This document shows positions 1 through 18,411 of a DNA stretch of 18,411 nucleotides, piece after piece. Origin of the DNA: an uncultured Dialister sp. (GTDB lineage: Bacteria > Bacillota > Negativicutes > Veillonellales > Dialisteraceae); the NCBI GenBank assembly GCA_934216155.1, contig CAKQBK010000055.1, forward strand, positions 1 to 18,411, in the 5' to 3' direction. The notes beneath the pieces are model-generated. The model did no database searches. It saw only the letters and a list, made by a program, of their open reading frames with translations, and was not told the DNA's origin. Position 1 is the stretch's first letter, and every line of letters starts with the position of its first letter. Made by a program: the position numbers and the translations under genes.

Positions 1-36
1 TTTTATACTCTAGGTAACGCTACGGCTCCACCGGTT

Positions 37-70
37 CCCCCATCTCAGATGGGGGCTTGCTTTTCTTTTC
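37..70 (+). terminator. Possible intrinsic terminator
   Basis: CCCCCATC and GATGGGGG form an 8-bp perfect stem around a 3-nt loop (37-55), followed by a T-rich tail (CTTGCTTTTCTTTTC). It would end a plus-strand transcript entering from outside the window. No gene on that side is visible, so the role is inferred. Confidence 0.4.
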
Positions 71-100
71 CAGTCACCAGTCACGAGTCACCAGTCACCA
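71..100. repeat. Heptamer tandem repeat, family A (CAGTCAC)
   Basis: Four consecutive 7-bp units CAGTCAC, CAGTCAC, GAGTCAC and CAGTCAC. The same word builds the palindromes at 1492-1565 and 14411-14505. Here only one arm is visible; the other may lie outside the window or be lost. Confidence 0.8.
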
Positions 101-114
101 TAAGTATATAACGA

Positions 115-150
115 AAAAACTCCGCAAATCAAATGATTAACGGAGTTTTT
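115..150 (-). terminator. Intrinsic terminator downstream of tRNA-Arg
   Basis: AAAAACTCCG and CGGAGTTTTT form a perfect 10-bp stem with a 16-nt loop, with A and T runs on either side, so it can work in both directions. It lies about 30 bp beyond the 3' end of the minus-strand tRNA gene, which is the most likely transcript to end here. Confidence 0.8.
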
Positions 151-180
151 CTATATCAGCTGGTTTTCCAGCCCAATTTC

Positions 181-256
181 TGGTGCGTCTAGAGGGATTC
201 GAACTCTCGACACCTGGTTCCGGAGACCAGTGCTCTATCCACTGAGCTATAGACGC
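181..256 (-). tRNA. tRNA-Arg (anticodon CCG)
   Basis: The minus strand gives a full cloverleaf: acceptor GCGTCTA/TAGACGC, D arm GCTC/GAGC, anticodon stem CTGGT/ACCAG with loop CTCCGGA (anticodon CCG, reads CGG), and T loop TTCGAAT. Discriminator A and an encoded CCA (181-183) complete the 3' end. The T stem GAGAG/CCCTC has an A-C mismatch at positions 52-62, which is unusual. An extended -10 promoter precedes the gene and a terminator follows it. Confidence 0.95.
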
Positions 257-268
257 TTAACGAAGGTA

Positions 269-277
269 ATTATACCA
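269..277 (-). promoter_or_regulatory. Extended -10 promoter of tRNA-Arg
   Basis: The minus strand reads TGGTATAAT, a full extended -10 element, ending 12 bp before the tRNA 5' end. No good -35 is seen. Its upstream part runs into the alr terminator hairpin, so the two sites overlap. Confidence 0.6.
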
Positions 278-286
278 TAGAAAGCA

Positions 287-328
287 AAAATAAGGAAGAC
301 GAAATTTCTATTTCATCTTCCTTATTTT
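287..328 (-). terminator. Terminator of alr
   Basis: AAAATAAGGAAGA and TCTTCCTTATTTT form a perfect 13-bp outer stem. The interior (GAAAT/ATTTC) can pair as well. It lies about 30 bp past the alr stop codon and has A/T runs on both sides. Confidence 0.8.
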
Positions 329-359
329 CAAATTTTCTTACCTTACAGTTATGGATAAA

Positions 360-1460
360 TTATTTTTCTACAAAAACTCTGGGGATACGTTTCAAATCGC
401 AGAAGATTTCATGAGGAATGGTTTCTGCGGTGGTAGCAATTTCATCCACAGTGAGTTCTTCGTCTCCCTGTTTACCCATGAGAACCACTTCATCACCTGG
501 TTTGACTTCATCATCGACAGCTACCATGAACTGGTCCATGCAAATACGGCCTACGATAGGGCAACGTTTACCATTGATGAGAACCACGCCTTTGTTGGAC
601 AGGCTTCTGTGATAACCATCAGCATAACCAATCGGGACCGTAGCAGTCTTCATATCTTCTTTTGCAACATAGGTACCACCATAACCGATGGCTTCCCCTT
701 TATGCAGGGTCTGTACGTGGGTGACATGGCTGATGACGCTCATGGCATACTGCAGATCCAGTTTATTGGTCATCACATCAGAAGGCTGTGGTCCATAGAG
801 GATAATGCCTGGTCTAGCTAGGTTATGCCAGCTTCTCGGGATATCAATGACACCGGCACTATTGGCAGAAGAAATAACGAAGTTTTCATCTACTGGCATA
901 TGGGAAATGGCTTCATCGAAACGGTCCAGCTGTTTCAGAGCGGCATCTTTTTCTTTATGGTCAGCTGTAGCCATATGGGTAAAGGTGCCATGGGCATGAA
1001 TGTGTGGATAGTTCTTCAGTTTTTCCAGGAGAGCCGGTACATCTTCGGGATGGGTACCAATACGATTCATTCCGGTATCGATAGGAAGCATCACTTCGAT
1101 GGTCTTCTTGGAAACGGCAGCGATGGCTTCCAAAGAGTCCAAATCCACTGTGTCATCTACCGGCATAATCAGGTCTTTGTTGACCCCAATCGGCATATCT
1201 TCCGGAAGCGGAAGGCCCAAAACATAAATCGGGCAGGTAAATCCTGCATCACGAAGTTCAGCCCCTTCTTCTACACGAGCCACTGCCGCAGAAGTGTAAC
1301 CTTCTTCCAGGGCAATACGCAATGTTTCTTTCGCACCATGGCCGTAAGCATTGGCTTTGACTACAGCCAGACAATTGACTTCTTTCGGCAAGTGCTGACG
1401 AATGACTCTCAAATTATGACGCAGTGCGTTCAGGTTGATTTCCATGTAAGAAACTGACAT
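360..1460 (-). CDS. alr: Alanine racemase
   Basis: A PLP enzyme of the cytoplasm that interconverts L- and D-alanine, supplying D-Ala for peptidoglycan. At 366 aa it has normal length. Visible family features: the PLP lysine K35 in AVVKANAYGHG; R216 in ARPGIILYG, in the place of the arginine facing the pyridine nitrogen; the second-base tyrosine Y260 in GYGGTY; GYADGYHR near 278-285; and PIVGRICMDQ at 301-310. The ATG start has GGGAGG 5-6 nt upstream. The gene stands alone between a promoter embedded in a repeat and a strong terminator. Whether the enzyme is biosynthetic or catabolic cannot be told from sequence; position by itself favours a housekeeping role. Confidence 0.97.
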   Translation of the reverse strand: MSVSYMEINLNALRHNLRVIRQHLPKEVNCLAVVKANAYGHGAKETLRIALEEGYTSAAVARVEEGAELRDAGFTCPIYVLGLPLPEDMPIGVNKDLIMPVDDTVDLDSLEAIAAVSKKTIEVMLPIDTGMNRIGTHPEDVPALLEKLKNYPHIHAHGTFTHMATADHKEKDAALKQLDRFDEAISHMPVDENFVISSANSAGVIDIPRSWHNLARPGIILYGPQPSDVMTNKLDLQYAMSVISHVTHVQTLHKGEAIGYGGTYVAKEDMKTATVPIGYADGYHRSLSNKGVVLINGKRCPIVGRICMDQFMVAVDDEVKPGDEVVLMGKQGDEELTVDEIATTAETIPHEIFCDLKRIPRVFVEK

Positions 1461-1485
1461 TTTTATCCTCCCATTCTTCGGGTAT

Positions 1486-1514
1486 ATTATAGGTGACTGG
1501 TGGACTGGTGACTA
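1486..1514 (-). promoter_or_regulatory. Putative alr promoter overlapping repeat
   Basis: On the minus strand TAGTCA, 17 bp and TATAAT (1486-1491) form a plausible sigma-A promoter about 25 bp before the alr start. The -35 and spacer lie wholly inside the left arm of the family A palindrome; the -10 directly abuts it. Confidence 0.55.
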
Positions 1515-1565
1515 GTGACTGGGAGTTTATTTTCCCAGTCACCAGTCACCAGTCACTAGTCCACC
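1492..1565. repeat. Palindromic repeat P1, heptamer family A
   Basis: Two 33-bp arms (1492-1524 and 1533-1565), made of GTGACTG-type heptamers, flank an 8-bp spacer GTTTATTT. The inner 12 bases next to the spacer pair except for one position; the outer part pairs in a shifted register because one arm carries GGACTGGTGACT and the other GGACTAGTGACT. It is intergenic, upstream of alr. Confidence 0.85.
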
Positions 1566-1953
1566 AATAACAGGCCCAACCCGCAGAACCGTACATCTGG
1601 CTCCGCAATAAAAAAACACCTCACGCCCAAAAGACAGACGTTGCCGCCTGTTTTCTGAAGCCACGGTGCTTCTTTTATTCTTGTTTCTTTATAATAGCTC
1701 GATTGGCTCAAAAAGGGAAGAGGAAATTTATAATTGTTATTAGTTGTTTGGACTCCAGCAACTAACAGCAATTGCATGCTAGATTTCCTGCTTATTAAAC
1801 AATCACTGGGAAAACGCTGGTTTAATTATGGTTCCTGGCATATCCGTACGGATGTATGAAAAGCACTAATGTCAATTCATATGGTGGCATCAGTATGTCA
1901 AAAAAGTCCATGCTTCTTTGTTGTAAGGAAAATACTTTTGGAAGAGTTGAAAA
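1566..1953. other. Gene-free stretch between P1 and IS66
   Basis: No convincing gene of normal size. It holds a possible structured RNA or terminator at 1610-1668, palindrome P2 (1720-1790), and a short plus-strand reading frame (MSIHMVASVCQK...) that runs into the IS66 insertion site. If the IS and one target copy are removed, that frame ends as EELKKIS-stop. It could be the tail of an older, unrecognised gene or mobile element, or chance. Confidence 0.4.
1720..1790. repeat. Palindromic repeat P2, heptamer family B
   Basis: Imperfect inverted arms. The left arm reads GAGGAAATTTATAATTG, then TTATTAGTTGTTTGGA. The right arm's reverse complement reads CAGGAAATCTAGCATGCAATTG, then CTGTTAGTTGCTGGAG. 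The GTTAGTTG word is the reverse of the AACAACT heptamer at 14747-14780. As at lepA, a family B hairpin lies next to a family A hairpin. Confidence 0.65.
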
Positions 1954-1981
1954 GTAAGCGTCAAATAAAACCATGGAATTG

Positions 1982-2029
1982 AAAAAGCCCAAGAGCTATA
2001 GTAATGTATCTATAGCTCTTGAGCTTTTT
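1982..2029 (-). terminator. Terminator of IS66 tnpC
   Basis: AAAAAGCCCAAGAGCTATAG and CTATAGCTCTTGAGCTTTTT form a stem of about 20 bp with one imperfect pair and an 8-nt loop, starting directly after the tnpC stop codon and ending in a T run. It lies inside the left IS end. Confidence 0.85.
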
Positions 2030-2030
2030 C

Positions 2031-3599
2031 TCATTTGCAGAGGTTCTGCACCGCTGGATTCCAGGGCATGTATTTGTCTAAAACATCCACATGAGTGGGA
2101 TGCTCTTCTTTTGGGAGTTCTTTGAAAATGTAATTTAAATATTTTTCTACATTGAGGCCATTAGCCTTACATGTCTCTATGATGCTATAAACTTTAGCAC
2201 TGGCATCTGCCCCTTTGGGGCTCCCGGAAAAGAGCCAGTTCTTTCTGCCCACAGTAAATGGACGTATGCTATTCTCGGCCAGATTATTAGATATAGCACA
2301 CCTGCCATCTTTCAGATATGTTTCGAGCATCTCTCGATTGGTCAATGCATAGTTCAGTGCGGTACTGATCTTGGATTTGGGAAGGACTTTGTAACGGCTT
2401 TCTTCTGCCCATGTCCAAAAGGCATCCAAAAGAGGCTGCTCTTTTTCAAGCCGCAGCTTTTTTCGTTCTTCTGGAGAGAGTTCTTTTAATTCGCCCTCTA
2501 TTTGGAATAATTTTCCTATATAATCCAATCCTTTCTGCATCAGCGTATTCGTCAGGTCATCTACACCTGTTGGCTTTGCGTCCACAAATTTTCTTCTGGC
2601 ATGTGCCCAACACAGACAACGCTTTGCTTTGGCAAACTAGTTATACCCGCCGTAGTCATCGGTATGCAGATATCCATGATACCCCTCAAGAAATTTGGCA
2701 GCATTCTCTCCTTTTCTTGTCGCACTGTATTCAAACAGGCGAATAGAGTGTTGTGGTTCAAACTCCCCACTAGAATATAGCCACATATACGACTTTGTCG
2801 TATTCTTGCGTCCCTTCTCTTGTAATACCTGTACGGGTGTCTCATCTGCATGGAGACAGGTTTCCCGAAGAAGTAATTCATGCATACGATCATATATAGG
2901 TGTAAGCCAAACTTCAGAAACTTTCATGACCCAATTGGCCAATGTAGCTCGGCACAAAGGAAGTCCCATCTGTTTCCATTCTTGCTCCTGTCTGTCTAAG
3001 GGAAGGGCATAGAAATATTTTTGCATTATAACATGAGATACCGCAGAGGGAGAAGCAAAAGAATGGTCATTCACCGGTCTTGGTATAGACGGCTTCGTAA
3101 TGACCTTTTTATCGCTGCTTAATGAACAGTGACGACATTCATAACTACGCTGGTAGTACCGAATCACCTTTATTTGTGCTGGAATATAAACCACTTCATC
3201 ACGCACATGGTCTGCGCCTATAGAATGCAACAATTCTCCACACTGTTTGCAGGTCTTTTCATCTTCTGGAAGATCAATATATCTATTTTCAATATTTTCT
3301 TTCGGTAATAACTCAAGTAATTTTTTCACAGAGGTCTTTCCCTTAGAAGTTTTCTTGCGCTTATGGGATTTAACCACTGTTTCTTCTTCCAGAGCAGGTT
3401 CTTTGACACTCTGCTTCGCTTCTACCTCAACTTCATCAAAAAGGCTCATTTCTACATCTGGATACACAGTCATCTTCTTTTCTGTTTTAGGACCAAAATG
3501 GAGCTTTTTCAGTGTAGCAAGTTGCTGTTTCAACTGCTGATTTTCCATTTTCAGTTCATCGATTTCTTTCTGCATTTCCAACTCATGAGTAGTTTTCAT
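2031..3599 (-). pseudogene. tnpC: IS66 transposase TnpC, interrupted by in-frame TAG
   Basis: A DDE transposase of the IS66 family. In order: an N-terminal leucine-zipper-like coiled coil (about 5-35), a zinc-finger-like module with C117, C120, C155 and C158, and a catalytic core with D252 (HADETPVQ) and D314 (HTDDYGGYN). A TAG stop (2637-2639) follows at codon 321. The same frame then continues without any shift as FAKAKRCLCWAHARRKF and reaches the third acidic residue (NNLAENSIRPF, about E442) and a normal C-terminus. Full length would be about 521 residues, usual for the family. The first part lacks the catalytic glutamate, so the protein should be inactive unless the TAG is read through. 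Only a weak AAAGG ribosome site precedes the start. Confidence 0.9.
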
Positions 3600-3648
3600 A
3601 GGTAGAACCTTTCATTTACCACATTGAAAAATATAGATATATAATACA

Positions 3649-3698
3649 ATAAAAAGCATGAAATTACAAGTATTTATCGGTGATTTCATGCTTTTTAT
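3649..3698 (-). terminator. Hairpin between tnpB and tnpC
   Basis: ATAAAAAGCATGAAAT and ATTTCATGCTTTTTAT form a perfect 16-bp stem with an 18-nt loop. On the minus strand the stem ends in a T run, so it has the form of an intrinsic terminator between the two IS genes and would lower tnpC expression from the tnpB side. Confidence 0.75.
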
Positions 3699-3711
3699 GA
3701 TGCAAATTTTC

Positions 3712-4065
3712 TTAAATGCTGCAGCTAGGGTGAATGGTCTTTACTGCTTTGGGTTGATAAATAGCAAGACCTTCCATGAGCCAGCGATATTGCTGAGGAG
3801 TTAGCTTTGTAAGTTCATGATTTTCACGAGGCCATTGAAATTTTCCATTTTCAAGGCGTTTGTAGAGAAGAATAAAACCATCACCTTGCCAAAGAAGAAT
3901 TTTCAGACGATCTTTTTTGCGACCGCAGAAGAGGAATAGAGAGGAACTAAAAAGATTGGCTTTAAATTGTTGGGAAATGATACAGGAAAGACCATCAATA
4001 GACTTTCGCATATCCGTATAACCACCTACCAAGAAAATATGATTGGCCGAGAATTGAATGTTCAT
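3712..4065 (-). CDS. tnpB: IS66 accessory protein TnpB (Orf2)
   Basis: A 117-aa protein with the IS66 Orf2 pattern: FLVGGYTDMRKSIDGLSCII near the N-terminus, LFLFCGRKKDRLKILLWQGDGFILLYKRLENGKFQWP in the middle, and LTPQQYRWLMEGL near the end. Its molecular role in IS66 transposition is not well defined. I chose the ATG at 4065 because CTGGAGG lies 8 nt upstream; an ATG at 4131 in the same frame would add 22 residues that do not look like the family and has no ribosome site. It is intact, unlike tnpC downstream. Confidence 0.92.
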   Translation of the reverse strand: MNIQFSANHIFLVGGYTDMRKSIDGLSCIISQQFKANLFSSSLFLFCGRKKDRLKILLWQGDGFILLYKRLENGKFQWPRENHELTKLTPQQYRWLMEGLAIYQPKAVKTIHPSCSI

Positions 4066-4157
4066 GTGAAATACCTCCAGTTGATTGATCTGGAGGTATT
4101 GTCGCATATATGAAGCTGTTTGAATATCCACGGAATCTCTGACGCTTACGTTGAAAA

Positions 4158-4826
4158 AATATCATAAAAGAGGGTCACAAAATCGCACCTTGTTACGATA
4201 CTAGTATTGGAAGCGGGAAAGTTTCCCGGACATTTCAAAGCCATGACTTCTTTTCTTCTCTGTCCTAGGTCAAGAGGGAAAGGAGAAGTGAGAATGAAAT
4301 AAGCGACTTTTTTCCGTTTCCCTTTTCCAAGGGTTTTGCCCGGGAGAAATCAGTGGAGAAGTAAAGAAAGACAAAATAAAAAGCAGAAAAGCAAATCTGA
4401 AAAGTAAGGAACTTTCACCCTTTGACGACTAGTTCTGGGCCACCTCTCTGTGAGTAAGGCAGTCCCCTTCGGGGGCACCCTGCCTGGAAACTGACGTACT
4501 CGACCAGACGCCTGATTCATTGGATGAGAAACCTTCGAAAAAAGGAAATGCTTTTCTGCTTTTTTGTCATGCTATGTTGAGAGCAATGCTGTTAAGTTAA
4601 GGAAATGCTGATTTAATCAAAGAGTTTGAAATTATATGAATTTTTATCCAAAGCTTCGTCAAGAAAATCCTTACATAGCCCACTATTCGCATATTTTCTT
4701 TCCTCACTTTGAATAAAGATTCAAGAATAATCCCAATCCATGATTTATACTAGGCCCGTTGTCAAGACCACATTCTTTGATGTGAAGGAGAAAATTTTTG
4801 CACTCCAATGAGATCTTTCAATGCTA
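4158..4826. other. Gene-free stretch between IS66 and the glycan operon
   Basis: No gene is recognised. The main content is palindrome P3 (4370-4568). A 31-codon minus-strand ORF at 4597-4692 (MRIVGYVRIFLTKLWIKIHI...) has a GAGGAAAG ribosome site about 5 nt upstream but resembles nothing I know and may be a remnant. A small GGGAAA/TTTCCC hairpin lies near 4215-4230. I see no convincing terminator behind the glycan operon. Confidence 0.45.
4370..4568. repeat. Long palindromic element P3
   Basis: Outer arms GACAAAATAAAAAGCAGAAAAGCA (4370-4393) and TGCTTTTCTGCTTTTTTGTC (4549-4568) share an exact 16-bp pairing (AAAAAGCAGAAAAGCA). Further in, AAGGAACTTTCACCC (4406-4420) has an imperfect inverted partner near 4522-4535, and TTCTGG (4433) pairs with the complementary CCAGA near 4504. 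The centre is a strong hairpin, AGGCAG-CCCC-TTCG-GGGG-CTGCCT (4457-4485). It could be a structured RNA or a palindromic mobile repeat; I match no known RNA family. Confidence 0.6.
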
Positions 4827-5258
4827 TTAATCCTTATTTTTGAACTTAACCTTTTCTATAACCATCTTCATAACAATGAAATTTAGTATCATAGTCACTG
4901 GTGTCACTGCAATTTTAGCTCCCAAAGCTGCAAAAGTCCCCAGTTCAAAAAATATAAAATAAGGCACAATCATATCGTAAATAACTACAAGCAAATGTGA
5001 AATTTCCAAAATAAGAATAGCCTGATAGATCAGATAAATAGCATACTTCCATTTCAGCGGAATTTGAGATTGATTATGAAAAATAAAACGAGTTGAAGTG
5101 AAAAACACAAATGTTACTCCTACCCATGAACTGATAATATTATTGACAGCTAAGTTTTTTGAGAAAAATCCAAGCACAAGGTAGACTGTCACGTCAAGAA
5201 TCCATCCTATGCCAGATAGCCCAATAAAACGAATTGCCTGATAGATGAGATTTTTCAT
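4827..5258 (-). CDS. GtrA-like membrane protein
   Basis: A 143-aa polytopic protein with about four membrane helices (near 10-32, 38-58, 72-95 and 105-130), typical of the GtrA/DPMS-associated family. The N-terminal FIGLSGIGWILDVTVYLVL and the loop STRFIFHN fit the family. Members are proposed to move polyprenyl-phosphate-linked sugars across the membrane or to assist a GT2 enzyme; that role is inferred here. It is the last gene of the operon, 4 nt after the nucleotidyltransferase, with AGGA upstream of its ATG. Confidence 0.85.
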   Translation of the reverse strand: MKNLIYQAIRFIGLSGIGWILDVTVYLVLGFFSKNLAVNNIISSWVGVTFVFFTSTRFIFHNQSQIPLKWKYAIYLIYQAILILEISHLLVVIYDMIVPYFIFFELGTFAALGAKIAVTPVTMILNFIVMKMVIEKVKFKNKD

Positions 5259-5262
5259 TTCA

Positions 5263-5994
5263 CTATTCCTGCAAAAATATGGCTAATTCTTCCGGTGTTC
5301 CCAGCACATGCACCGCTTCTGATTTTACATTTGAAATATAGACGCTCCCACCTTTACCAATCAAGTAATTGTACAATGGTGCAATATATTTCTCGCCATT
5401 AACCATATGCTCTCCTTTACCATAATATCCGTCATATAACTTCTTATACAGATCAACACTTTTAAAATAATAAGCACCTAAAGTACAGTAAGACGAAATA
5501 CGTTCTTTTTCTCGCACTTCCATAGCTTCTCCACTTTCGTTCAATTTAACAAAGCTCCAGTGGTCACCTTCTCCCTCAAAACAAGGAATAAAGCCATCTC
5601 CTTTAAGTTCCTCTGCATTCATTTCGCCTGGTTCCACATAAGTATCAATATTATAAATCAGTAAAGCATCACCACTCTTCCAATAATCTTTTGCAAGAGT
5701 AGCCGTTGTAGCCTGTCCATCTGTCAATTTGTCGATAAGAATTACATGATATGACTCAATTCCAAGCGCACGACAATGATCGCAAATGAATGTTTCTACA
5801 TCATAGTTCTGATCTTTTAACGCAATAAAAATGTACTGTTTTATGATTGCACTATATCCTTCCAAACTTTCCATAGACCAATCAAATAATGTTTTCCCCT
5901 TAGCTTTAATCATGTATTTAGGACAATCATAACCTGCTTTACGAAAACGAGATCCAAGACCCGCCATAGTAATAACTACATCAAGATTCTTCAT
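5263..5994 (-). CDS. BcbE-like nucleotidyltransferase of surface-glycan synthesis
   Basis: A 243-aa soluble enzyme of the sugar-phosphate nucleotidyltransferase fold (GT-A like). The N-terminus VVITMAGLGSRFRKAGYDCPKYMI holds the NTP-binding GxGxRF loop and the conserved PK; YNIDTYVEP near 114-122 is the metal/acceptor segment. It most resembles capsule-cluster proteins of the BcbE type. It would join a phosphorylated sugar or small molecule to a nucleotide; the substrate is unknown. It overlaps the HAD gene by 4 nt (ATGA) and precedes gtrA, so translation is probably coupled. Together with the kinase and HAD phosphatase it forms a recognisable activation cassette. Confidence 0.85.
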   Translation of the reverse strand: MKNLDVVITMAGLGSRFRKAGYDCPKYMIKAKGKTLFDWSMESLEGYSAIIKQYIFIALKDQNYDVETFICDHCRALGIESYHVILIDKLTDGQATTATLAKDYWKSGDALLIYNIDTYVEPGEMNAEELKGDGFIPCFEGEGDHWSFVKLNESGEAMEVREKERISSYCTLGAYYFKSVDLYKKLYDGYYGKGEHMVNGEKYIAPLYNYLIGKGGSVYISNVKSEAVHVLGTPEELAIFLQE

Positions 5995-6410
5995 TTGTCT
6001 TCATTCCTCTTTTCATATCGAGAAGTTTTACAAAGTTGATCCATTTCATCTACATCACAATTTAAAAATTCAGTTGGCCGCACCGTTCTATCATCCACAT
6101 AAAAGCCTTTCTTCCCTGCCCATGGTTTTCCATAGATAATTTCATCATAAGGAATTTCCCATTTTTCCAACCATTTAGTAAGAACTGCTGCCGTGTATTT
6201 ATTAATCAGGCCAATATTTCCCTGATAAGTCCGCATATTTCGAGAAGTAAAAAGAATAATCCGTGCGCCATTATCATGGTAATAGCGCATCTTATCTACA
6301 ATTTCAGAAAATGGCACTAAATCTTCATACTTTTCTCCTGATTTCTTAATTGGACAAATGGTTCCGTCAATGTCAAAAACAAAAACATAATCATCAAATT
6401 TCATTTTCAA
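5991..6410 (-). CDS. BcbF/EcbF-like HAD phosphatase
   Basis: A 139-aa minimal HAD enzyme without a cap domain. Motif I is FDIDGTI (D13 nucleophile, D15), motif II LFTSRN (about 54-59), the motif III lysine lies in GKPWAGKKG, and motif IV is VDDRTVRP. Size and motif spacing fit the capsule-biosynthesis phosphatases of the EcbF/BcbF type. It would remove phosphate from a pathway intermediate. It starts inside the kinase gene (17-nt overlap) and overlaps the nucleotidyltransferase by 4 nt. The second Met codon (6404) is an alternative start. Confidence 0.85.
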   Translation of the reverse strand: MKMKFDDYVFVFDIDGTICPIKKSGEKYEDLVPFSEIVDKMRYYHDNGARIILFTSRNMRTYQGNIGLINKYTAAVLTKWLEKWEIPYDEIIYGKPWAGKKGFYVDDRTVRPTEFLNCDVDEMDQLCKTSRYEKRNEDK

Positions 6411-11111: not shown

Positions 11112-11128
11112 AACACTCCCACGCAAAA

Positions 11129-11168
11129 AGACCTAATAACAGAAAAAAATTTTTCTGTTATTAGGTCT
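11129..11168 (-). terminator. Perfect 19-bp hairpin before the glycan operon (terminator/attenuator)
   Basis: AGACCTAATAACAGAAAAA and its exact complement are separated by only two bases. On the minus strand the stem ends in TCTTTTT, so it has intrinsic-terminator form. It lies between the -10 element at 11317 and the ribosome site of the first operon gene, so transcripts from that promoter must pass it. It may equally serve to end hemW transcripts. Confidence 0.8.
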
Positions 11169-11192
11169 CGAAAAGAGAGGGAAAATGTTTGT

Positions 11193-11270
11193 TTACCCCC
11201 CCCGAATTTTTCCTTGTCTATCCAATTTTATACAGTAGCACATTTCTATTTCTCTATCGATCATATCCAT
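11193..11270 (-). CDS. Putative 25-aa leader peptide ending in a G8 tract
   Basis: ATG at 11270 has AGGAGG 3-4 nt upstream; a second in-frame ATG at 11264 has better spacing (9 nt). The frame reads MDMIDREIEMCYCIKLDRQG then KIRGG-stop. The last codons are a run of eight G (11196-11203). The stop lies 24 nt before the terminator hairpin. Its place between promoter and hairpin suggests a regulatory leader rather than a protein with its own job. Deleting one G would keep the frame open through the hairpin to a TGA that overlaps the ATG of the membrane-protein gene. No family is recognised; chance is possible. Confidence 0.45.
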   Translation of the reverse strand: MDMIDREIEMCYCIKLDRQGKIRGG

Positions 11271-11316
11271 GCTCCTCCTGCTCCTACTGGACTCTCGTAA
11301 AATAAACTTTATATCA

Positions 11317-11325
11317 ATTATATCA
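11317..11325 (-). promoter_or_regulatory. Extended -10 promoter of the glycan operon
   Basis: The minus strand reads TGATATAAT, a consensus extended -10. No good -35 is seen at 16-18 bp. Initiation near 11310 would give a leader of about 200 nt holding the small ORF and the hairpin. A second TATAAAG just downstream adds to the AT-rich character. Confidence 0.55.
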
Positions 11326-11428
11326 TAAATTATTCACTTCGGAATGATTTTTATAAAGTTCCATTCATCGCTATGCTTTCATTCAAACGGTACTTTTACG
11401 CACAAACAATAAGTATCTCTGTCCATTT

Positions 11429-12565
11429 TTAATCTCTCAAAAACTGCTCAAACACAAAATTCCCCATAGCCGCCCCATGATAGGTTAGGAAGAGATACCC
11501 CGCTTCCTCTTTTAGCATGCCCCGTTTTTTGAGCATATGGATCGCCTCTTGGTACCAAAAGAAAATAGGCTTCCCGTATCGTTTTTCAAAATCAGCCAAA
11601 GGAATCCCCTCTTTCATGCGAAGATGCAAGAAACAATATTCTTCCATTTCATCCTTTATCGAAAGTTCTTCCCGTTCTTCTAGCGGCATATGCCCAGAAA
11701 GAAGTTCCTTTTCGTATAGACGTACCCCTGGCGTATTTTCCATGCGACAATGACCGATGCGTGAGGCTGCCGCCGGTCCTAGTCCCAGGTAATCATCCAG
11801 TTCCCAATACTTCTGGTTATGCCTAGATCGATATCCCTTTCTAGCGAAGCTGGAGATTTCATACCGTTCTAATCCATAGTGGGGCAGCATGCGGCACATG
11901 GCCTGGTACATGGCCCAGCTTTCTTCTTCCGTAGGACGCGGAAGTTTCCCTTGCTCCGCGAGCTGTGAAAACCGTGTTCCTTCTTCCAAAATCAAGCTGT
12001 AAATGGACATGTGATTCACCGGCAGATGAACCGCCCAGCGGATACTTTTTTCAAAATCACTGACAGTCTGACCGGGAAGTTCATACATGAGGTCAATGCT
12101 GATATTATGAAATCCAATCCAATAAGCCCGCTTCACTGCTTGCTCTGCTTCTTTGGCCGTATGGAGCCGTCCAATTTTTTGAAGTAATCGGTCATCGTGG
12201 GATTGGACCCCCACAGAAATACGGTTGATTCCTAAGGCATAGGCATTTTTAAGATAGGACTCACTCATATCACAGGGATTCATTTCCATGGTGATTTCTG
12301 CATTTGTAGAAATAGAGAAATGCTGCCTCAGGGTTTGCAAAACGTCTGCCAGCTGTTTGCCCGATAAGGAAGAGGGCGTGCCACCTCCCAGATAGACCGT
12401 ATCACAGAGCCGATCTTGAAAAGAAAGGCTCTTTTTTTCTATTTCCTTTTGCAAAGCCTCCACGAATCGATCCGTCGGCTGTCTTCCAATTGAATAGAAG
12501 CCGCAGTATCCACAGCGGCTTCTACAAAAAGGAATATGTATATAAATTCCTAAATTTTTAGTCAT
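11429..12565 (-). CDS. hemW: HemW-like radical SAM protein (heme chaperone; HemN-related)
   Basis: A 378-aa radical SAM protein. The N-terminal [11 protein letters not shown] gives the CxxxCxxC iron-sulfur ligands (C14, C18, C21) followed by F, the HemW pattern, where true coproporphyrinogen dehydrogenase HemN has an extra cysteine. [11 protein letters not shown] is the GGGTP SAM-binding motif, and [15 protein letters not shown] is typical of the family. The HemN C-terminal domain is present. HemW proteins bind heme and are thought to pass it to target proteins; they are often misnamed oxygen-independent coproporphyrinogen oxidase. The start overlaps the lepA end by 8 nt, the classic lepA-hemW arrangement. 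Confidence 0.93.
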
Positions 12566-14354
12566 TATTGAGTACCGCCATGAAAGCTTCCTGCGGGATT
12601 TCTACGCTGCCCACCTGCTTCATGCGCTTCTTACCTTCCTTCTGCTTTTCCAGAAGTTTCTTCTTACGAGACACGTCGCCACCATAGCACTTGGCCAATA
12701 CGTCCTTCTTGTAGGCTTTGATGGTTTCGCGGGCAATAATCTTGCTCCCAATAGCGGCCTGAATCGGCACTTCGAACTGCTGACGAGGAATGATTTCTTT
12801 CAGCTTCTGTGCTAGTACGCGACCACGAGCAGCTGCATTGCTTCGATGCACGATGATAGACAGGGCATCAATCAGGTCCCCATTGAGGAGAATATCCAGT
12901 TTTACTGCATCAGTCTTCTGATAACCAGCCAACTGGTAATCCAAAGAAGCATAACCTTTGGTGGACGATTTCAATTTGTCAAAGAAATCAAAAATAATTT
13001 CCGAGAGCGGAATCTTGTAGGACAAATCCACACGGGTTTCATCCAAGTAGGTCATGGTCTGGAATTCGCCGCGACGATTTTGTACCAGTTCCATCACGTT
13101 GCCAACCATATCGGACGGTACCAGGATTTCCACCTTTGCTACCGGCTCTTCAATGTGTTCAATCTTTGTCATGGGCGGCAATTCCGCCGGATTGTCCACT
13201 GGCACCATTTCTCCATCGGTTTTGTATACATGATAAATAACAGACGGTGCGGTGGTAATCAGTTTCAGCTTATATTCTCGTTCAAGACGTTCCTGCACCA
13301 CATCCATATGGAGCAATCCCAGGAAGCCACAACGGAATCCAAAGCCCAAGGCTTGCGAGGTTTCCGGTACATATTCCAGTGCCGCATCGTTGAGCTGCAA
13401 TTTTTCCAGAGCCACTTTCAGATTGTCATAATCCTTACTTTCAATCGGATAGAGCCCACAGAATACCATCGGCAGTGCTTTGCGATATCCCGGAAGGGCT
13501 TCTTTTGCACCATTTTCAGCAGTAGTGATGGTATCCCCTACTTCGCAGTCAGATACGGTTTTGATGCTAGCTGCCACGTAGCCTACAGAACCACAGGTCA
13601 GCACATCGCAGGGCTTAGGAAATGGAGAAAAATAGCCCACTTCGGTGACAGTATATACTTTGCCAGAAGCCATCATGCGGATATTCATTCCCGGACGGAT
13701 TTCTCCATCTTTCACGCGGACGTAAGCAATGGCCCCTTTATAGGAATCAAAAATAGAATCAAATACGAGACAGCGAAGCGGATCTTTGCTATGGTCTTCC
13801 GGCGGTGGCACCTGTTCCACGATGCGTTTCAGCACTTCTTCCACATTCTGCCCAGTCTTGGCGCTGACAGGGATGGCATCGGACATATCCAGCCCAATGA
13901 CATTTTCTACTTCCTTCTTCACTCGTTCTACATCGGCACTGGGCAGATCCACTTTATTGATGACAGGAATAATTTCCAAGTCGTGATCCAAAGCCAAGTA
14001 CACATTGGCCAAGGTCTGGGCCTGCACACCCTGGGTGGCATCGATGATAAGAATGGCCCCTTCACAGGCAGACAAACTGCGGGACACTTCGTAATTGAAA
14101 TCCACATGCCCCGGGGTATCGATGAGGTTCAGTTCGTACGTTTCTCCATCTTCATAGGTATAATTCAAACGAACCGACTGTTCTTTAATGGTAATCCCAC
14201 GTTCCCTTTCTAATTCCATGGTATCCAAAATCTGGGCTTCCATGTCTCTCTTTTGTACCGTGCCAGTCAATTCGATAAGACGGTCCGCCAGTGTGGACTT
14301 TCCGTGGTCAATGTGGGCGATAATAGAAAAATTCCTGATATGCTCTGTATCCAT
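12558..14354 (-). CDS. lepA: Elongation factor 4 (LepA), ribosome-associated GTPase
   Basis: A 598-aa translational GTPase. G1 is AHIDHGKST, the switch I region RGITIKEQ, G3 DTPGHVDF, G4 NKVDLP and G5 SAKTG; domain II and an EF-G-like domain follow, and the LepA-specific C-terminus includes [25 protein letters not shown] and [24 protein letters not shown]. LepA acts in ribosome assembly or initiation and under ionic stress; its exact role is debated. I chose ATG 14354 because AAGGAG lies 7 nt upstream and [20 protein letters not shown] is the usual N-terminus; the frame can be extended 17 codons upstream, without support. Base composition is richer in G+C than the glycan operon. Confidence 0.97.
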
Positions 14355-14410
14355 GGGTAACTCCTTATTTCTTGTAGAAATCTTCATGCACCATAGGTGC
14401 ACCACTATCC

Positions 14411-14505
14411 ATGAATGGTGACTAGTAGACTAGTGACTCGTGACTGGGCCACGCTTTTTCCTAGTCACCAGTCACCAGTCACTAGTCTACTAGTCACCAT
14501 TTCAT
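14411..14505. repeat. Palindromic repeat P5, heptamer family A, in lepA leader
   Basis: The left arm 14411-14448 reads ATGAATGGTGACTAGTAGAC onward, and the right arm's complement reads ATGAAATGGTGACTAGTAGAC onward; both continue with TAGTGACT and further GTGACTG heptamers, around a short GCCACGCTTTTT spacer. At least 28 bp pair nearly perfectly. The variant AGTAGAC occurs in both arms but not in P1. If transcription starts at the promoter at 14536, this hairpin is in the lepA 5' leader. Confidence 0.88.
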
Positions 14506-14535
14506 AGAAATATTGTAATACGTAGTTTCCGTACT

Positions 14536-14565
14536 ATTATATCATATGCAGCTTTCTAGTAGCAA
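14536..14565 (-). promoter_or_regulatory. Promoter of lepA-hemW
   Basis: The minus strand reads TTGCTA (14560-14565), 18 bp, then TATAAT (14536-14541), with TG one base before the -10, an extended -10 (TGATATAAT). It would give a leader of about 175 nt containing palindrome P5. Confidence 0.7.
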
Positions 14566-14582
14566 AAATGGGATTGCTGATT

Positions 14583-14780
14583 GTTGTTAGTTGTTGGTTT
14601 ATGCTCCGGGATCGTATAGTACAACTCGAACAAATACAAAGCCTCATTGGTTTAAGGTTTAGGGTTTAAAGGGGAGCACATAAACCCTAAACCTTAAACC
14701 AATGCCACTTTCTTCATAGCAGATTGTTACAAAAGGGCTCGGTAAGTAAACCAACAACTAACAACTAACAACCAACAACT
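14583..14780. repeat. Nested palindrome P6, heptamer families B and C
   Basis: The outer pair GTTGTTAGTTGTTGGTTTA (14583-14601) is perfectly complementary to 14747-14765, where AACAACT heptamers run on to 14780. The inner pair, 24 bp, starts CATTGGTTTAAGG at 14645-14668 and is perfectly complementary to 14681-14704, which is made of TAAACCC/TAAACCT heptamers; the loop is 12 bp. The DNA between the two shells pairs poorly. It is intergenic, between lepA and the DAHP synthase gene. Confidence 0.9.
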
Positions 14781-14796
14781 ATATCTTACCAAAATA

Positions 14797-14827
14797 AAAC
14801 AGTCTCACTTTTGACAGGAGACTGTTT
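14797..14827 (-). terminator. Terminator of the DAHP synthase gene
   Basis: AAACAGTCTC and GAGACTGTTT form a perfect 10-bp stem with an 11-nt loop. On the minus strand it is followed by TATTTTGG. It lies about 110 bp past the stop codon, beyond the nonamer array. Confidence 0.8.
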
Positions 14828-14884
14828 CATTTGCCATATATATTTTTTAGAAGCAGAAATATGATTTTTATGCTCGGCACAAGC

Positions 14885-14929
14885 GAGGAACCTGAGAAAC
14901 CTTAGAAACTTGAGTAACCTGAGTAACCT
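14885..14929. repeat. Nonamer tandem repeat, family G (GAGTAACCT)
   Basis: Five contiguous 9-bp units: GAGGAACCT, GAGAAACCT, TAGAAACTT, GAGTAACCT, GAGTAACCT. It ends 9 bp before the DAHP synthase stop codon region, in its 3' untranslated part. No inverted partner is seen in the window. Confidence 0.85.
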
Positions 14930-14937
14930 ATAACTCA

Positions 14938-15969
14938 TTAGACCAATTCTGCCAATTCCAGAATGAGTTTTTCACTCTTGACCCAACCAAGGCAGGGGTC
15001 GGTGATGGATTTACCGTAAACGCCTTCGCCAATTTTCTGGTTACCATCTTCGATGTAACTTTCAATCATGAGGCCTTTCACAATGTGGCGAATGTCTTCC
15101 GAGTAAGCACGACTAGCCATCACATCTTTGGCAATGCGGATCTGTTCCATGTATTTCTTGCCGGAATTGTTATGGTTGCAATCCACCACAATAGCCGGAT
15201 TGGCCAGGGTTCTTTCCTGGTACATGTCCAGCACTTTGCGGATATTTTCATAGTGATAGTTTGGCATGCTGGTGCCGAAATGGTTCACATAGCCACGAAG
15301 AATCGCATGGGCCAAAGGATTGCCTGTGGTATGGACTTCCCAACCGTGGAAAAGGAAATCCTGTTCATTCTGTGCCGCTTCGATGGAGTTCATCATGACA
15401 GACAAATCACCAGAGGTTGGGTTCTTCATTCCGACAGGAATACCCGCCCCACTGGCAATCATACGATGCAGCTGGTCCTCTACAGAACGAGCACCGATGG
15501 CCCCATAAGAAAGAAGGTCCGACAAATAGCGGTGATTTTCTGGATACAGAATTTCTTCTGCACAGGTGAAACCGGTCTGCTCAATCACATGGACGTGCAT
15601 GCGACGAATGGCTTTGATGCCTTCCATCATATTTTCATTGCCTTCTGGATCTGGCTGGTGGAGCATGCCTTTGTAACCTTTACCTATGGTTCTTGGTTTA
15701 TTGGTGTACACCCGCGGCACAATGAAAATTTTATCTTTCACCTGGTCCTGTACCTTAGCCAGTCGGGTACAATAATCGAGAACAGCCGGTTCATTATCTG
15801 CCGAGCAAGGCCCGATGATGAGAAGCAGACGGTCATCTTTTCCGGTCATGATGTCATGCATCACCTGGTCTCTCTGGTCTTTCAGTTTCTGGAATTCCGG
15901 TTTCAGTGGAATTTCATGTTTAATTTCCTGTGGTTCCGGCAACTTCCGGACGAATTTCATTTGTTCCAT
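14938..15969 (-). CDS. 3-deoxy-7-phosphoheptulonate (DAHP) synthase, class I AroG type
   Basis: A 343-aa cytoplasmic enzyme condensing phosphoenolpyruvate and erythrose 4-phosphate, the first step of the shikimate pathway. Family signatures: IIGPCSADN with metal ligand C55, YTNKPRTIGKGYKG, GARSVEDQLHRMIASG, VGMKNPTSGD, VDCNHNNSGK with a metal histidine, and YGKSITDPCLGW with the metal aspartate. Length equals that of E. coli AroF/G/H. I chose ATG 15969 because AGGAG lies 8 nt upstream; the ATG at 15999 lacks a ribosome site. Which aromatic amino acid inhibits it cannot be read safely from sequence, so I give no letter. It stands alone, bounded by repeats and a terminator. Confidence 0.95.
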   Translation of the reverse strand: MEQMKFVRKLPEPQEIKHEIPLKPEFQKLKDQRDQVMHDIMTGKDDRLLLIIGPCSADNEPAVLDYCTRLAKVQDQVKDKIFIVPRVYTNKPRTIGKGYKGMLHQPDPEGNENMMEGIKAIRRMHVHVIEQTGFTCAEEILYPENHRYLSDLLSYGAIGARSVEDQLHRMIASGAGIPVGMKNPTSGDLSVMMNSIEAAQNEQDFLFHGWEVHTTGNPLAHAILRGYVNHFGTSMPNYHYENIRKVLDMYQERTLANPAIVVDCNHNNSGKKYMEQIRIAKDVMASRAYSEDIRHIVKGLMIESYIEDGNQKIGEGVYGKSITDPCLGWVKSEKLILELAELV

Positions 15970-16021
15970 TTTGTTTTCTCCTATTTCGTGTATATGCATT
16001 AGTCATTCATTACATATTGAA

Positions 16022-16209
16022 TAAAAAGGTTATTATTGTACAGCTTTCTCTATCTAACAACCAGTTGAATCCACAGTGACAAGGTTATGAACGGTTATAA
16101 AGGTTATGTGATTATGAAATTTCCATAAGCTTTCATAACCTTTTATAACCCTGACTCTATGAAATTTCTATTTGTTAGATATTGTAAGCAGCAGAATAAT
16201 ACCCTTATG
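16022..16209. repeat. Palindromic element P7, nonamer family D
   Basis: Outer arms GGTTATTATTGTACAGC (from 16028) and the complement of GCAGAATAATACCC (16191-16204) match. Further in, TATCTAACAA (16051) pairs with TTGTTAGATA (16173). Inner words GGTTATAAAGGTTATG (16093-16108) pair with CATAACCTTTTATAACC (16134-16150), and TATGAAA/TTTCATA close the centre. It shares inner words and the outer ATTATTCTGC segment with P8. It fills most of the gap between the DAHP synthase and the TIGR04076 gene. No separate terminator or promoter is clear in this gap. Confidence 0.8.
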
Positions 16210-16234
16210 CTAAATATCTTTTCCGCACAAATTT

Positions 16235-16504
16235 CTACTTTTCAATTTCAATCTTAAATACATTAATAGTGTCCACATCAGGACAGCAGAAGAGGGCTGT
16301 GCCTTTTTCTTGTCCTGGTTGTGGAATTTCTCCGCCGTAGCGCAGGATGTCTATGTAAGGAAATGCCACATGCATCGCCATGGGGCACAGGTTGCCCCGT
16401 TCGGTATCGAAATCCCATGTGTCACCGACCCGATGTCCCCGATGGCAAGGACAAGGACCTTTGCGATCCACGCAAGTGATTTTGATTTTGGGCCGTCTAG
16501 GCAT
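16235..16504 (-). CDS. TIGR04076-like small cysteine-containing protein
   Basis: An 89-aa protein. KIKITCVDRKGPCPCHRGHRVGDTW, then GNLCPMAMHVAFPYIDILRYGGEIP and FCCPDVDTINVFKIEIE match the layout of TIGR04076 proteins (cysteines early, CP-A/M-H before a P-Y-x-x-x-L-R-Y-G-G core, late CPD). The function of the family is unknown; the conserved cysteines suggest metal binding or redox use. The ATG overlaps the pyridoxamine kinase stop (TGATG), so the two are probably co-translated. Confidence 0.8.
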   Translation of the reverse strand: MPRRPKIKITCVDRKGPCPCHRGHRVGDTWDFDTERGNLCPMAMHVAFPYIDILRYGGEIPQPGQEKGTALFCCPDVDTINVFKIEIEK

Positions 16505-17322
16505 CAGTCCACCACCTCCAGACAGGTTTCGATAGGAATGCCTTTGAAGGTATCCTGGTTATCCATATTTCTAAGAATCATTTCCCGCACTGCTTTCATG
16601 GCCTTGGCTGTAGCCTCTTCCATTGCTTTTCCGCGAAGCACATCGCCCATGAAAATCGAAGAAAAGATGTCTCCCGTTCCAGGGAAACGGACCGGTATGA
16701 GGTCAAAAGGCAAGAAGAAATAGGTATCTTTCTTGGCATCATAGCCAGCCACCACATCGGCCCCATCCACTTTCGCACTGGTAATAAGTACCGAACCGCC
16801 ACTCATGGTGTGCAATTTTTGTAATAGCTGCTGCATGTCTTCTTTCGTAGTTCCTGATTCCTGGTAAGCTGTTCCGGTCAAAAGAGCCGCCTCTGTGTAA
16901 TTGGGCACCATGTAATCGGCCTGGGCAATGAGTTTCTGCATTTCTTTCACAGTCTCCTCGGTGAGGCCATTGTACAAATGACCTTCATCACCCATGATGG
17001 GATCCACAAAAATCTGCGTACCTTCCGCTCTTTGTTTCCGGCAATAGGCAGCAATCATATTGGCTTGCCGGTCCGACACAATAAAGCCTGTCGAAATGGC
17101 ATCAAAAGTAAATCCCAATTCTTCCCATACTTTCAAAGTATTCTCCATAAAATCCGTCGTATCCTGGATTTCAAATTTGCCATAGTCCAGCGTGTTCGAT
17201 ACCAACGCTGTAGGCAAATTGTAAGTGTAATGCCCCATATGAGACAATACAGGCATCATTGCTGCCAACGCCACCTTGCCATATCCGGGTAAGTCATTGA
17301 CCAGCAAAATCTGTTTTCCCAT
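16504..17322 (-). CDS. pdxY: Pyridoxamine kinase
   Basis: A 272-aa ribokinase-fold enzyme that phosphorylates pyridoxal/pyridoxamine/pyridoxine in vitamin B6 salvage. The N-terminus VNDLPGYGKVALAAMMPVL forms the substrate-site lid, FVDPIMGDEGHLYNG is typical of PdxK/PdxY, PNYTEAALLTG follows, and RFPGTGDIFSSIF holds the anion hole with the catalytic Asp (GTGD). I chose ATG 17322 since AGGAGG lies 8 nt upstream; an upstream in-frame ATG (17358) falls in the promoter. It could be a PdxK-type kinase with broader use; family assignment is firm, substrate less so. The alr product and many other PLP enzymes depend on such salvage. Confidence 0.9.
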   Translation of the reverse strand: MGKQILLVNDLPGYGKVALAAMMPVLSHMGHYTYNLPTALVSNTLDYGKFEIQDTTDFMENTLKVWEELGFTFDAISTGFIVSDRQANMIAAYCRKQRAEGTQIFVDPIMGDEGHLYNGLTEETVKEMQKLIAQADYMVPNYTEAALLTGTAYQESGTTKEDMQQLLQKLHTMSGGSVLITSAKVDGADVVAGYDAKKDTYFFLPFDLIPVRFPGTGDIFSSIFMGDVLRGKAMEEATAKAMKAVREMILRNMDNQDTFKGIPIETCLEVVD

Positions 17323-17356
17323 GCTACTATCCTCCTGTTTGTGATATAGTGATTCC

Positions 17357-17365
17357 ATTGTATCA
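17357..17365 (-). promoter_or_regulatory. Extended -10 promoter of pdxY
   Basis: The minus strand reads TGATACAAT, an extended -10 with one change from consensus, about 35 bp before the pdxY ATG. The -35 is weak. The outer arm of palindrome P8 starts about 27 bp upstream. Confidence 0.5.
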
Positions 17366-17391
17366 TACTTTGAAGGAAACCGATATGAGAA

Positions 17392-17851
17392 GAGTGAGGA
17401 GTTAAGAATGAGGAGTGAGGAGTGGTGGCGGCGAGCCTCGAATTGCTCTTATATCGATAGCATACGAATGCCAAGATTCCTTTTTATATAGCTCGCCGAT
17501 GGATGAAACCAGATAGTAGCAAGTTTCACGGAAAACGATAGGGCTAAGGGTTATTATTCTGCTGATTTCTTCTGTGGAACATTTCCTGTTATTGTAACGA
17601 ACAGGTTAAAAAGGTTATAAAAGGTTATGGGGACACCGTTTTTACATAACCTTTTATAACCTTTTTAACCTTGTCACTTGCGACAGAATAAGAAATGTTT
17701 TACAAAAGAAATTGGCAGAATAATAACCTTTATACATATTATTTTCCGTGAAACATGACTCTAGCCGATGTAAAAAGGGGGTATTGGGGCGCTTTATAAG
17801 TTGTGCGCCCCTTCCAACACTCCTAATTCCTCATTCCTAACTCCTCACTCC
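17392..17851. repeat. Giant nested palindrome P8, families E (outer) and D (inner)
   Basis: Outer arms of about 37 bp, GAGTGAG/GAGTTAA/GAATGAG/GAGTGAG heptamers at 17392-17428, match the complement of 17815-17851 with few differences. The middle shell CCTTTTTATATAGCT (17479) is similar to the complement of the segment near 17765-17780. The inner shell GTTTCACGGAAAA (17523-17535) pairs with TTTTCCGTGAAAC (17742-17754); GGTTATTATTCTGC pairs with GCAGAATAATAACC; and AGGTTAAAAAGGTTATAAAA (17604 on) pairs exactly with 17644-17670. The loop is 14 bp. Similarity of the arms continues with gaps over about 220 bp each. It contains no gene. Confidence 0.85.
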
Positions 17852-17853
17852 AC

Positions 17854-17891
17854 AAAAACCGCCGTGTCTCTTTGAGAGTCACAGCGGTTTT
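17854..17891 (-). terminator. Terminator of the coiled-coil protein gene
   Basis: On the minus strand AAAACCGC, TGTGACTCT, a short loop, AGAGACACG and GCGGTTTTTG form a long stem with one mismatch and a T run, 5 bp past the stop codon. It abuts the outer arm of P8. Confidence 0.85.
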
Positions 17892-17895
17892 CTTG

Positions 17896-18294
17896 CTAAA
17901 GTTGAAGTCCTGCTTTTTTCAGTGCTTTGAAAGTGTAGTCCAAAATGTTATACAGCGTTTCTCCGTCTTCCACATTGAGTTGCTTCGGATTCATCTTCTT
18001 CACATCCTGGTAGTAGAAACTGAGTTTCTTTTCCAGACCTTTGAGATTTTCCTGATTTTCGCTAGCTTCTACCTGAGATTCTTTTTCCTCCTGCAGCAGT
18101 GCTTCCATCTGGAAAATTTTTTCTTGCAGTTTTTCATTATCTGCCTGCAAGGCCTCAATGGTCAGTGCCAATCCTTCATTATCATCCCGCTCTTGGGATA
18201 AATTGAGTTGAAGACTTTCCACCGTTCCCCGGAGTGTTTCGATCAACTGCCGGGTCACTTCCAGAGTTTTCACCGTTTCATTCTGTTTTTCCAT
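17896..18294 (-). CDS. Small coiled-coil protein, function unknown
   Basis: A 132-aa, highly charged protein. Residues about 10-90 form a near-continuous heptad pattern (LIETLRGTVESLQLNLSQER, LALTIEALQADNEKLQEKIF, MEALLQEEK), so a long coiled coil is expected. The C-terminal 40 residues (KKLSFYYQDVKKMNPKQL... NILDYTFKALKKAGLQL) look like a short helical domain. No signal peptide or membrane helix. GAGGTG lies 5 nt before the ATG. It has its own terminator and a nonamer array just upstream. It could be a structural or division-linked protein, but I recognise no family. Confidence 0.8.
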   Translation of the reverse strand: MEKQNETVKTLEVTRQLIETLRGTVESLQLNLSQERDDNEGLALTIEALQADNEKLQEKIFQMEALLQEEKESQVEASENQENLKGLEKKLSFYYQDVKKMNPKQLNVEDGETLYNILDYTFKALKKAGLQL

Positions 18295-18334
18295 AATTGC
18301 ACCTCGTTGTTTATGTAAATTGAATACATGACTT

Positions 18335-18411
18335 TTCTAAGGGTTCTAAGGGTTCTAAGGGTTCTAAGGGTTCTAAGGGTTCTAAGGGTTCTAAGGGTTC
18401 TAAGGGTTCTA
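18335..18411. repeat. Nonamer tandem array, family F (TTCTAAGGG)
   Basis: Eight and a half identical 9-bp units with no mismatch, running off the window end. It begins about 40 bp upstream of the coiled-coil gene start. The perfect copies imply recent expansion or active correction. Going by the other elements an inverted partner may lie outside the window. Confidence 0.95.

Follow-up and report, generated by a model that had tools for sequence, protein, structure and literature searches.

We analyzed an 18,411-nucleotide (nt) stretch of DNA (contig CAKQBK010000055.1, positions 1 to 18,411; here referred to as the window) whose intergenic gaps contain tandem arrays of 7- and 9-nt words, several of which face an inverted copy of themselves. 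Heptamer repeats are overrepresented in many bacterial genomes and have been little explained. By its sequence, the window comes from a Dialister-like bacterium. The 3-deoxy-D-arabinoheptulosonate 7-phosphate (DAHP) synthase AroF, encoded at 14941-15999 (Pfam match) and used for identity comparison, shares 90% identity with its counterparts in Dialister sp. UBA1703 and D. succinatiphilus and 89% with the one in Dialister UBA7295, and coding regions of the window share about 80% DNA identity with those of Dialister relatives. For comparison, we used 12 genomes of the family of D. succinatiphilus: G001 (UBA1703), G002 (D. succinatiphilus), G003 (UBA7295), and G004 to G012 (other relatives). The samples comprised 559 kb of G003 and 400 kb each of G002 and G006; open reading frames (ORFs) come from a simple calling script, not from annotation.

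Word arrays and hairpins in the window

An earlier note on this stretch had listed the words and proposed comparing them with shuffled intergenic DNA. The 3.8 kb lying outside ORFs contains 7 tandem arrays scoring ≥12 and 9 inverted repeats scoring ≥18, compared with a mean of 0.005 arrays (maximum, 1) and 0 inverted repeats in 200 Markov shuffles of the same DNA; both the tandem 7- and 9-mers and their inverted partners are genuine and occur far more often than chance predicts. The words, periods, and most of the inverted pairs lie where the note had placed them, the exception being the AAGGTTATA units, which fit a period of 10 best and mix spacings of 9 and 10 nt. Seven of the nine inverted repeats are word elements, and the other two (1981-2030 and 11129-11168) are ordinary short hairpins. 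The elements are as follows, with strand given where one was assigned.

70-100, minus strand: E1, CAGTCAC tandem array, 4.4 copies; no inverted partner close by
1490-1573: E2, convergent CAGTCAC-type array pair forming a single hairpin upstream of alr (fold z-score, −7.7)
14412-14503: E4, convergent CAGTCAC-type pair with arms 97% complementary and a private AGTAGAC unit in each arm (z, −10.8)
14566-14790: E5/E6, two-layer hairpin with AACAACT outer arms and TAAACCC inner arms at 14645-14704 (inner arms z, −8.7; whole z, −7.8)
14885-14929: E7, nonamer array GAGTAACCT, 5 copies; no inverted partner close by
16012-16220: E8, long imperfect hairpin with AAGGTTAT words in the core and ends AAGGTTATTATT / AATAATACCCTT (z, −4.8)
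17388-17855: E9, giant three-layer hairpin with GAGTGAG heptamer arms, middle arms 17523-17585 / 17692-17754, and core arms AGGTTATAAA 17603-17671 (z, −18.3)
17786-17811, minus strand: 7-bp GC stem beside the right heptamer arm of E9 (from the sequence and a side stem in the E9 fold)
18335-18411: E10, perfect TTCTAAGGG nonamer array, 8.6 copies, running off the window end

The array arms often form large palindromes, and single-strand folding predicts that whole intergenic gaps can fold as one giant hairpin. E9 is a 468-nt palindrome in which heptamers form the base and nonamer-type words the tip; its heptamer, middle, and core arms fold into a single, almost unbroken stem that bears side stems. 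The layering is threefold in E9 and twofold in E5/E6. Single-strand folds of shorter stretches gave z-scores of −8.7 (14636-14712, the inner arms of E5/E6), −6.2 (16078-16152), and −8.9 (17600-17673). E8 and the middle of E9 have ends in common (AGG..TTATTATT / AATAAT..CC), and no target-site duplication was evident by eye at these ends. A candidate AACAACT hairpin at 1736-1780 was dropped (z, −1.5; 16 of 200 shuffles fold equally well).

With a looser array cutoff, a convergent partner lies no more than 300 nt away from 7 of 13 window arrays and a divergent one from 1 of 13, the latter being an A-rich AAAAGGTTAT word that is ambiguous under the orientation rule. A control using the flank of another array gave 3 of 13, a value this high because elements have words in common. 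For three arrays (71-100, 14885-14929, and 18335-18411, the last cut by the window end), the flanking 600 nt contain no inverted partner. Arms are more alike within than between elements in three of five pairs, namely 14414-14501, where the private AGTAGAC variant is indeed present in both arms as had been claimed, 17603-17671, and the AACAACT pair 14578-14782, for which the weak hairpin at 1736-1780 is the sole comparison. For 1493-1571 and 16081-16150, one arm is better matched by an arm of another element.

A polar array-hairpin scaffold in G003

Several different words are present in G003, as in the window. Arrays in G003 (n = 232, containing two overlapping pairs) were read along the G/T-rich strand for flank tests, from which 18 of these arrays and 2 of the 13 window arrays were left out near stretch ends. 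Of 214 arrays, 99 have a GC stem beginning within 25 nt on their downstream side, compared with 5 that have one upstream and with 74 of 927 random intergenic points; AAGGTG is present no more than 20 nt downstream in 50 of the 214 and upstream in none. Profile copies follow one polar order: array, (G)GAAGGT, GC stem, TATGGGG. A sequence-only profile yielded a final set of 157 copies extending to the hairpin, and a covariance model found 168 places at an E value of 0.01 in the 559 kb. In the window, the minus-strand reading of 17786-17811 gives array, GGAAGG, and GGGGCGC..GCGCCCC, which is the G003 module order, in a single instance.

The word attached to this scaffold varies. Among 40 full copies with a leader, 18 carry GCGGG words, 16 TTCGTG, and 1 a nonamer, with 5 unclassed; among 114 without a leader, there are 34 nonamers, 22 TTCGTG, 20 GCGGG, 15 TTTCGGA, 6 TAGGAAT, 2 GTGRTAA, and 15 others. 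Words differ even among adjacent scaffold units of one cluster (L156:5480-5960 and L162:4755-5120), a shift from period 7 to period 9 within the scaffold was seen in one copy, and some arrays mix words (e.g., L164:6239 and L128:14807).

The stems vary in sequence while staying paired. In a set unselected for pairing (4 of the 157 copies dropped for N and 9 for having no anchor), 124 of 144 stems pair at 6/6 positions compared with 9 of 450 shuffled ones, and of 864 stem cells, 14 are G-T and 19 are mismatched. When copies were anchored by flanks only, 64 of 98 stems paired 6/6, versus 0.3% of shuffled stems.

Side observations on these copies include a small hairpin in the scaffold leader at L133:4300-7250 that varies among copies (CGATA..TATCG and others; by eye) and, in L141, L142, and L153, some loops reading CATCAG, the inverse of the common loop CTGATG (by eye); loop inversion by template switching would give the one from the other. 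A 69-nt tandem unit adjoins hairpin clusters at L133:4798-5304 and 7182-7757, and a TTAGCCG array of about 20 units at L137:9338-9476 immediately follows an apparent stop codon and precedes a terminator-like hairpin.

Hairpin mosaics and orthologous gaps in G002 and G001

G002 contains a different hairpin mosaic (TTGAC, stem, GAGGGTT, accompanied by GGTTC nonamers), with 81 profile hits in 400 kb. Its own arms pair 4/4 in 106 of 140 hairpins, whereas swapped partners do so in a mean of 12.2 (maximum, 22). The suggestion that the nonamers descend from a shared RGGTT-like core fits the window and G001/G002, where GGTTC words are present, but not G003, where nonamers are TCGGG based. One orthologous gap has a nonamer array in G001 and a GGTTGAC hairpin in G002; another holds a hairpin mosaic of about 1 kb in G002 versus other sequence in G001 (from reading only).

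Pairing is strongly oriented in G003, and it is not the rule in the relatives. Among the 232 G003 arrays, a search of the adjoining 300 nt found convergent partners for 47, divergent partners for 3, and direct partners for 17 downstream and 16 upstream, with 11 in the control; in G002, 2 of 22 arrays have a convergent partner. For neighboring merged elements within 1,200 nt, counts were 16 convergent, 3 divergent, and 9 same strand in G002 and 12, 6, and 59, respectively, in G003. Inverted pairs are a minority in the relatives: the earlier note would count as refuted if inverted partners were no more frequent than single arrays, and in both G003 and G002, single arrays outnumber paired ones. 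Nor are paired arms kept alike in G003, where 13 pairs of same-word arms gave a likeness of 0.71 within versus 0.76 between pairs (287 of 300 permutations at or above the observed value), i.e., no extra within-pair likeness. Of the common process proposed earlier, what stands is one element class behind different words, as the word mix on the G003 scaffold indicates, and oriented pairing (47 versus 3); the part that kept arms alike holds for three of five window pairs and does not extend to G003.

Species distribution

Arrays of period 7 to 10 number 2.43 per intergenic kb in the window, 1.4 in G003, 0.6 in G001, 0.22 in G002, and 0.02 in G006, densities that undercount nonamers, whose arrays stay open in frame and are therefore hidden by ORF calls. 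Eight other genomes, sampled at only 3 to 40 kb each, contained 0 or 1 array. When eight window words were searched as exact tandem dimers, AACAACT alone turned up in a relative (G003, 14 matches), and two of the eight have no exact tandem dimer even within the window. The pattern TCGTGRTTCGTGRTTCGTG matches G003 at 105 places, overlaps included, and the other 11 genomes at none; GAGGGTTCTTAAGNTTGAC has 114 in G002, 11 in G001, and 0 in the other 10; CAGTCACCAGTCACCAGTC matched none of the 12 genomes; and backward-read control patterns for all three gave 0 matches. Searches with the G003 hairpin model in G001, G002, G006, and other relatives gave no convincing match (best, 23.3 bits; E value, 0.023; in G002). 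Sister species have elements of the same kind, with mostly different words.

Interpretation and alternatives

Arrays and hairpins serve as modules in G003, G002, and G001. In these relatives, words are exchanged inside a scaffold, the two sides of stems change as pairs, pairing is oriented, and amplification is species specific, with no consistent strand preference relative to genes. Being short palindromes of high copy number that are mainly intergenic, the elements of G003 and G002 are REP-like (repetitive extragenic palindromic) in the broad sense; 39 of 157 copies in G003 and 13 of 79 in G002 overlap crude ORF calls. By analogy, the window elements may be modular elements too. We consider it reasonably probable that gaps of this kind hold species-specific, noncoding, dispersed elements akin to REPs, bacterial interspersed mosaic elements (BIMEs), or miniature inverted-repeat transposable elements, combining tandem word arrays (7 or 9 nt) with small hairpins and shaped by spread, homogenization, and template switching. 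Such elements would be copied nonautonomously into new gaps, by a trans-acting enzyme or by recombination- or replication-based copying. Slippage and unequal copying after point changes could make arrays uniform, and a new word might in this way take over an array, while polymerase template switching within quasi-palindromes during replication would keep stems complementary. For the hairpins, template switching, which the earlier note had also raised, is a live idea, given that the two sides change together and that few cells are G-T or mismatched.

Several results weigh against this interpretation. The window elements are tied to those of G001 to G003 by kind and not by homology, the comparison having covered genomes of relatives. 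In the window, a GC stem lies downstream of 1 of 11 arrays, which does not bear out the array-then-hairpin order there, and the G003 hairpin covariance model did not find its module; G002 arrays show no polarity by the same measure (GC stem downstream in 2 of 22, upstream in 2 of 22). The complete pairing of 39 selected G003 copies (all 251 pair cells standard, 57 with both partners altered and 1 with a single partner altered) is partly due to selection, as they were drawn from 81 passing a perfect-stem filter. A third orthologous gap keeps a four-unit array and its surroundings in both G001 and G002, and two aligned stretches of these genomes (5.3 and 3.5 kb) contain no insertion of ≥25 nt; rapid turnover is therefore not universal. 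For the elements compared here, neither an empty site nor a target duplication nor a mobilizing enzyme was found.

The elements could instead be functional terminators or 3′ untranslated region elements under selection at the RNA level. A terminator-like stem and T-run follows 76 of 214 G003 arrays, whereas such a site pointing away on the upstream side is present for 6 of 214, and 91 of 927 random points have one; several arrays directly follow a stop codon. Wrong-strand sites are also common, however (downstream of 42 of 214), and G-T cells are rare (14/864). Copies between ORFs lack a sense bias: the 85 in G003 comprise 23 sense, 15 antisense, 27 convergent-gap, and 20 divergent-gap copies, and the 63 in G002 comprise 15, 21, 13, and 14, respectively. 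Rfam searches returned only a tRNA in the window, with no family for the elements, and only rRNA and T-box matches in seven G002/G003 stretches. We regard an RNA function as unlikely. A bolder proposal is that a dedicated process swaps the word of a whole array within a conserved scaffold, even from a 7-nt to a 9-nt period, and places matched arrays on either side of a palindrome, which would give each species its own vocabulary. We consider this proposal distinctly unlikely. Narrowed to a dedicated enzyme that writes or replaces whole arrays like a templated repeat synthesizer, it would account for whole-array word change in one scaffold, including the one copy that passes from period 7 to 9, but the mixed arrays resemble stepwise replacement, and no candidate enzyme emerged. 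RVT_1 is restricted to G002 and G011 of the 12 genomes and is absent from G003, the richest in arrays; a reverse transcriptase was rejected as partner on this distribution, and we find an array-writing enzyme quite improbable.

Mobilization by a REP-associated tyrosine transposase (RAYT), with arrays as a side product, would suit high-copy intergenic hairpins with paired stem changes such as those of G002 and G003. The co-occurring transposase suggested earlier did not materialize: Y1_Tnp is present in 2 of 12 family genomes, neither of them G001 or G002. Both G003 copies, one of which has an internal stop, have hairpin ends of their own and no such arrays within 3 kb. The modules are flanked by AAGGT (G003) or by TTGAC and GAGGGTT (G002), their stem starts vary, and no constant GTAG or CGTC tag was found at the palindrome ends in either genome. 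RAYT mobilization thus appears very improbable. Least credible of all are ordinary simple-sequence repeats made by slippage and paired merely by closeness. That most G003 arrays are single and that paired arms are not specially alike would be as expected; however, array neighbors within 500 nt in G003 are convergent in 20 cases, divergent in 2, and direct in 10, and neither the polar hairpin association in G003 nor the giant palindromes of the window fit slippage alone.

Finding several words in one recognizable scaffold makes testable how a tandem word is replaced throughout an array, and hairpins whose sides change together make testable whether stem complementarity arises from mutation (template switching) rather than selection. 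Gaps of this kind are poor places to seek conserved regulatory sites.

Comparison with known systems

Cyanobacterial short tandemly repeated repetitive (STRR) sequences resemble the present elements in having several heptamer words within one genome. We know of no hairpin scaffold with word exchange among them. STRR heptanucleotide repeats are mentioned for Calothrix in a study of Xanthomonas GGGAATC heptamers (Rehm et al. 2015, PMC4692102), which gives 70 and 75 convergent close pairs in two genomes and few heptamer pairs in Nostoc, describes mostly intergenic heptamers, and reports no strand preference. The window and G003 resemble the Xanthomonas type, as there described, in their G-rich tandem heptamers and convergent pairs. 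They differ in that Xanthomonas has one word family per genome, whereas here there are many 7- and 9-nt words per genome, exchanged within a scaffold and joined to hairpins whose two sides both vary. The TAACTGA repeats of Beggiatoaceae and cyanobacteria (MacGregor 2015, PMC4679880) are likewise intergenic tandem heptamers, but they are direct repeats (one indirect) of one favored word near start codons. REP/BIME sequences are also short, high-copy, clustered intergenic hairpins, some without a dedicated transposase; as characterized in PMC3733652, they have a GTAG or CGTC tag, whereas the present elements have tandem-word modules, no constant tag, and no linked Y1 transposase. Template switching at replication, which creates and maintains hairpins in the RNA genes treated in PMC8794818, would explain stems with jointly changing sides; here it would act on dispersed intergenic DNA repeats.

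A literature search limited to PubMed Central found no report on such repeats in Dialister and no description of a many-word vocabulary with word exchange in a hairpin scaffold. Convergent heptamer pairs are already known from Xanthomonas; what is new is the many words per genome exchanged within a hairpin scaffold.

Other features

An IS66-type insertion sequence occupies window positions 2031-4131. This copy looks broken because two separate ORFs (2637-3599 and 2031-2585), each with a match to DDE_Tnp_IS66, stand in place of one large transposase gene. A minus-strand gene run at 4827-11126 includes a GtrA-type membrane protein, the only one given a domain search, whose neighbors seem to resemble sugar transfer and nucleotidyl transfer enzymes. 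Lone heptamer arrays (TAAAGAA and TAAGATG) occur in more distant Firmicutes (L045, L054, and L055, from Clostridia and Ruminococcus metagenome-assembled genomes).

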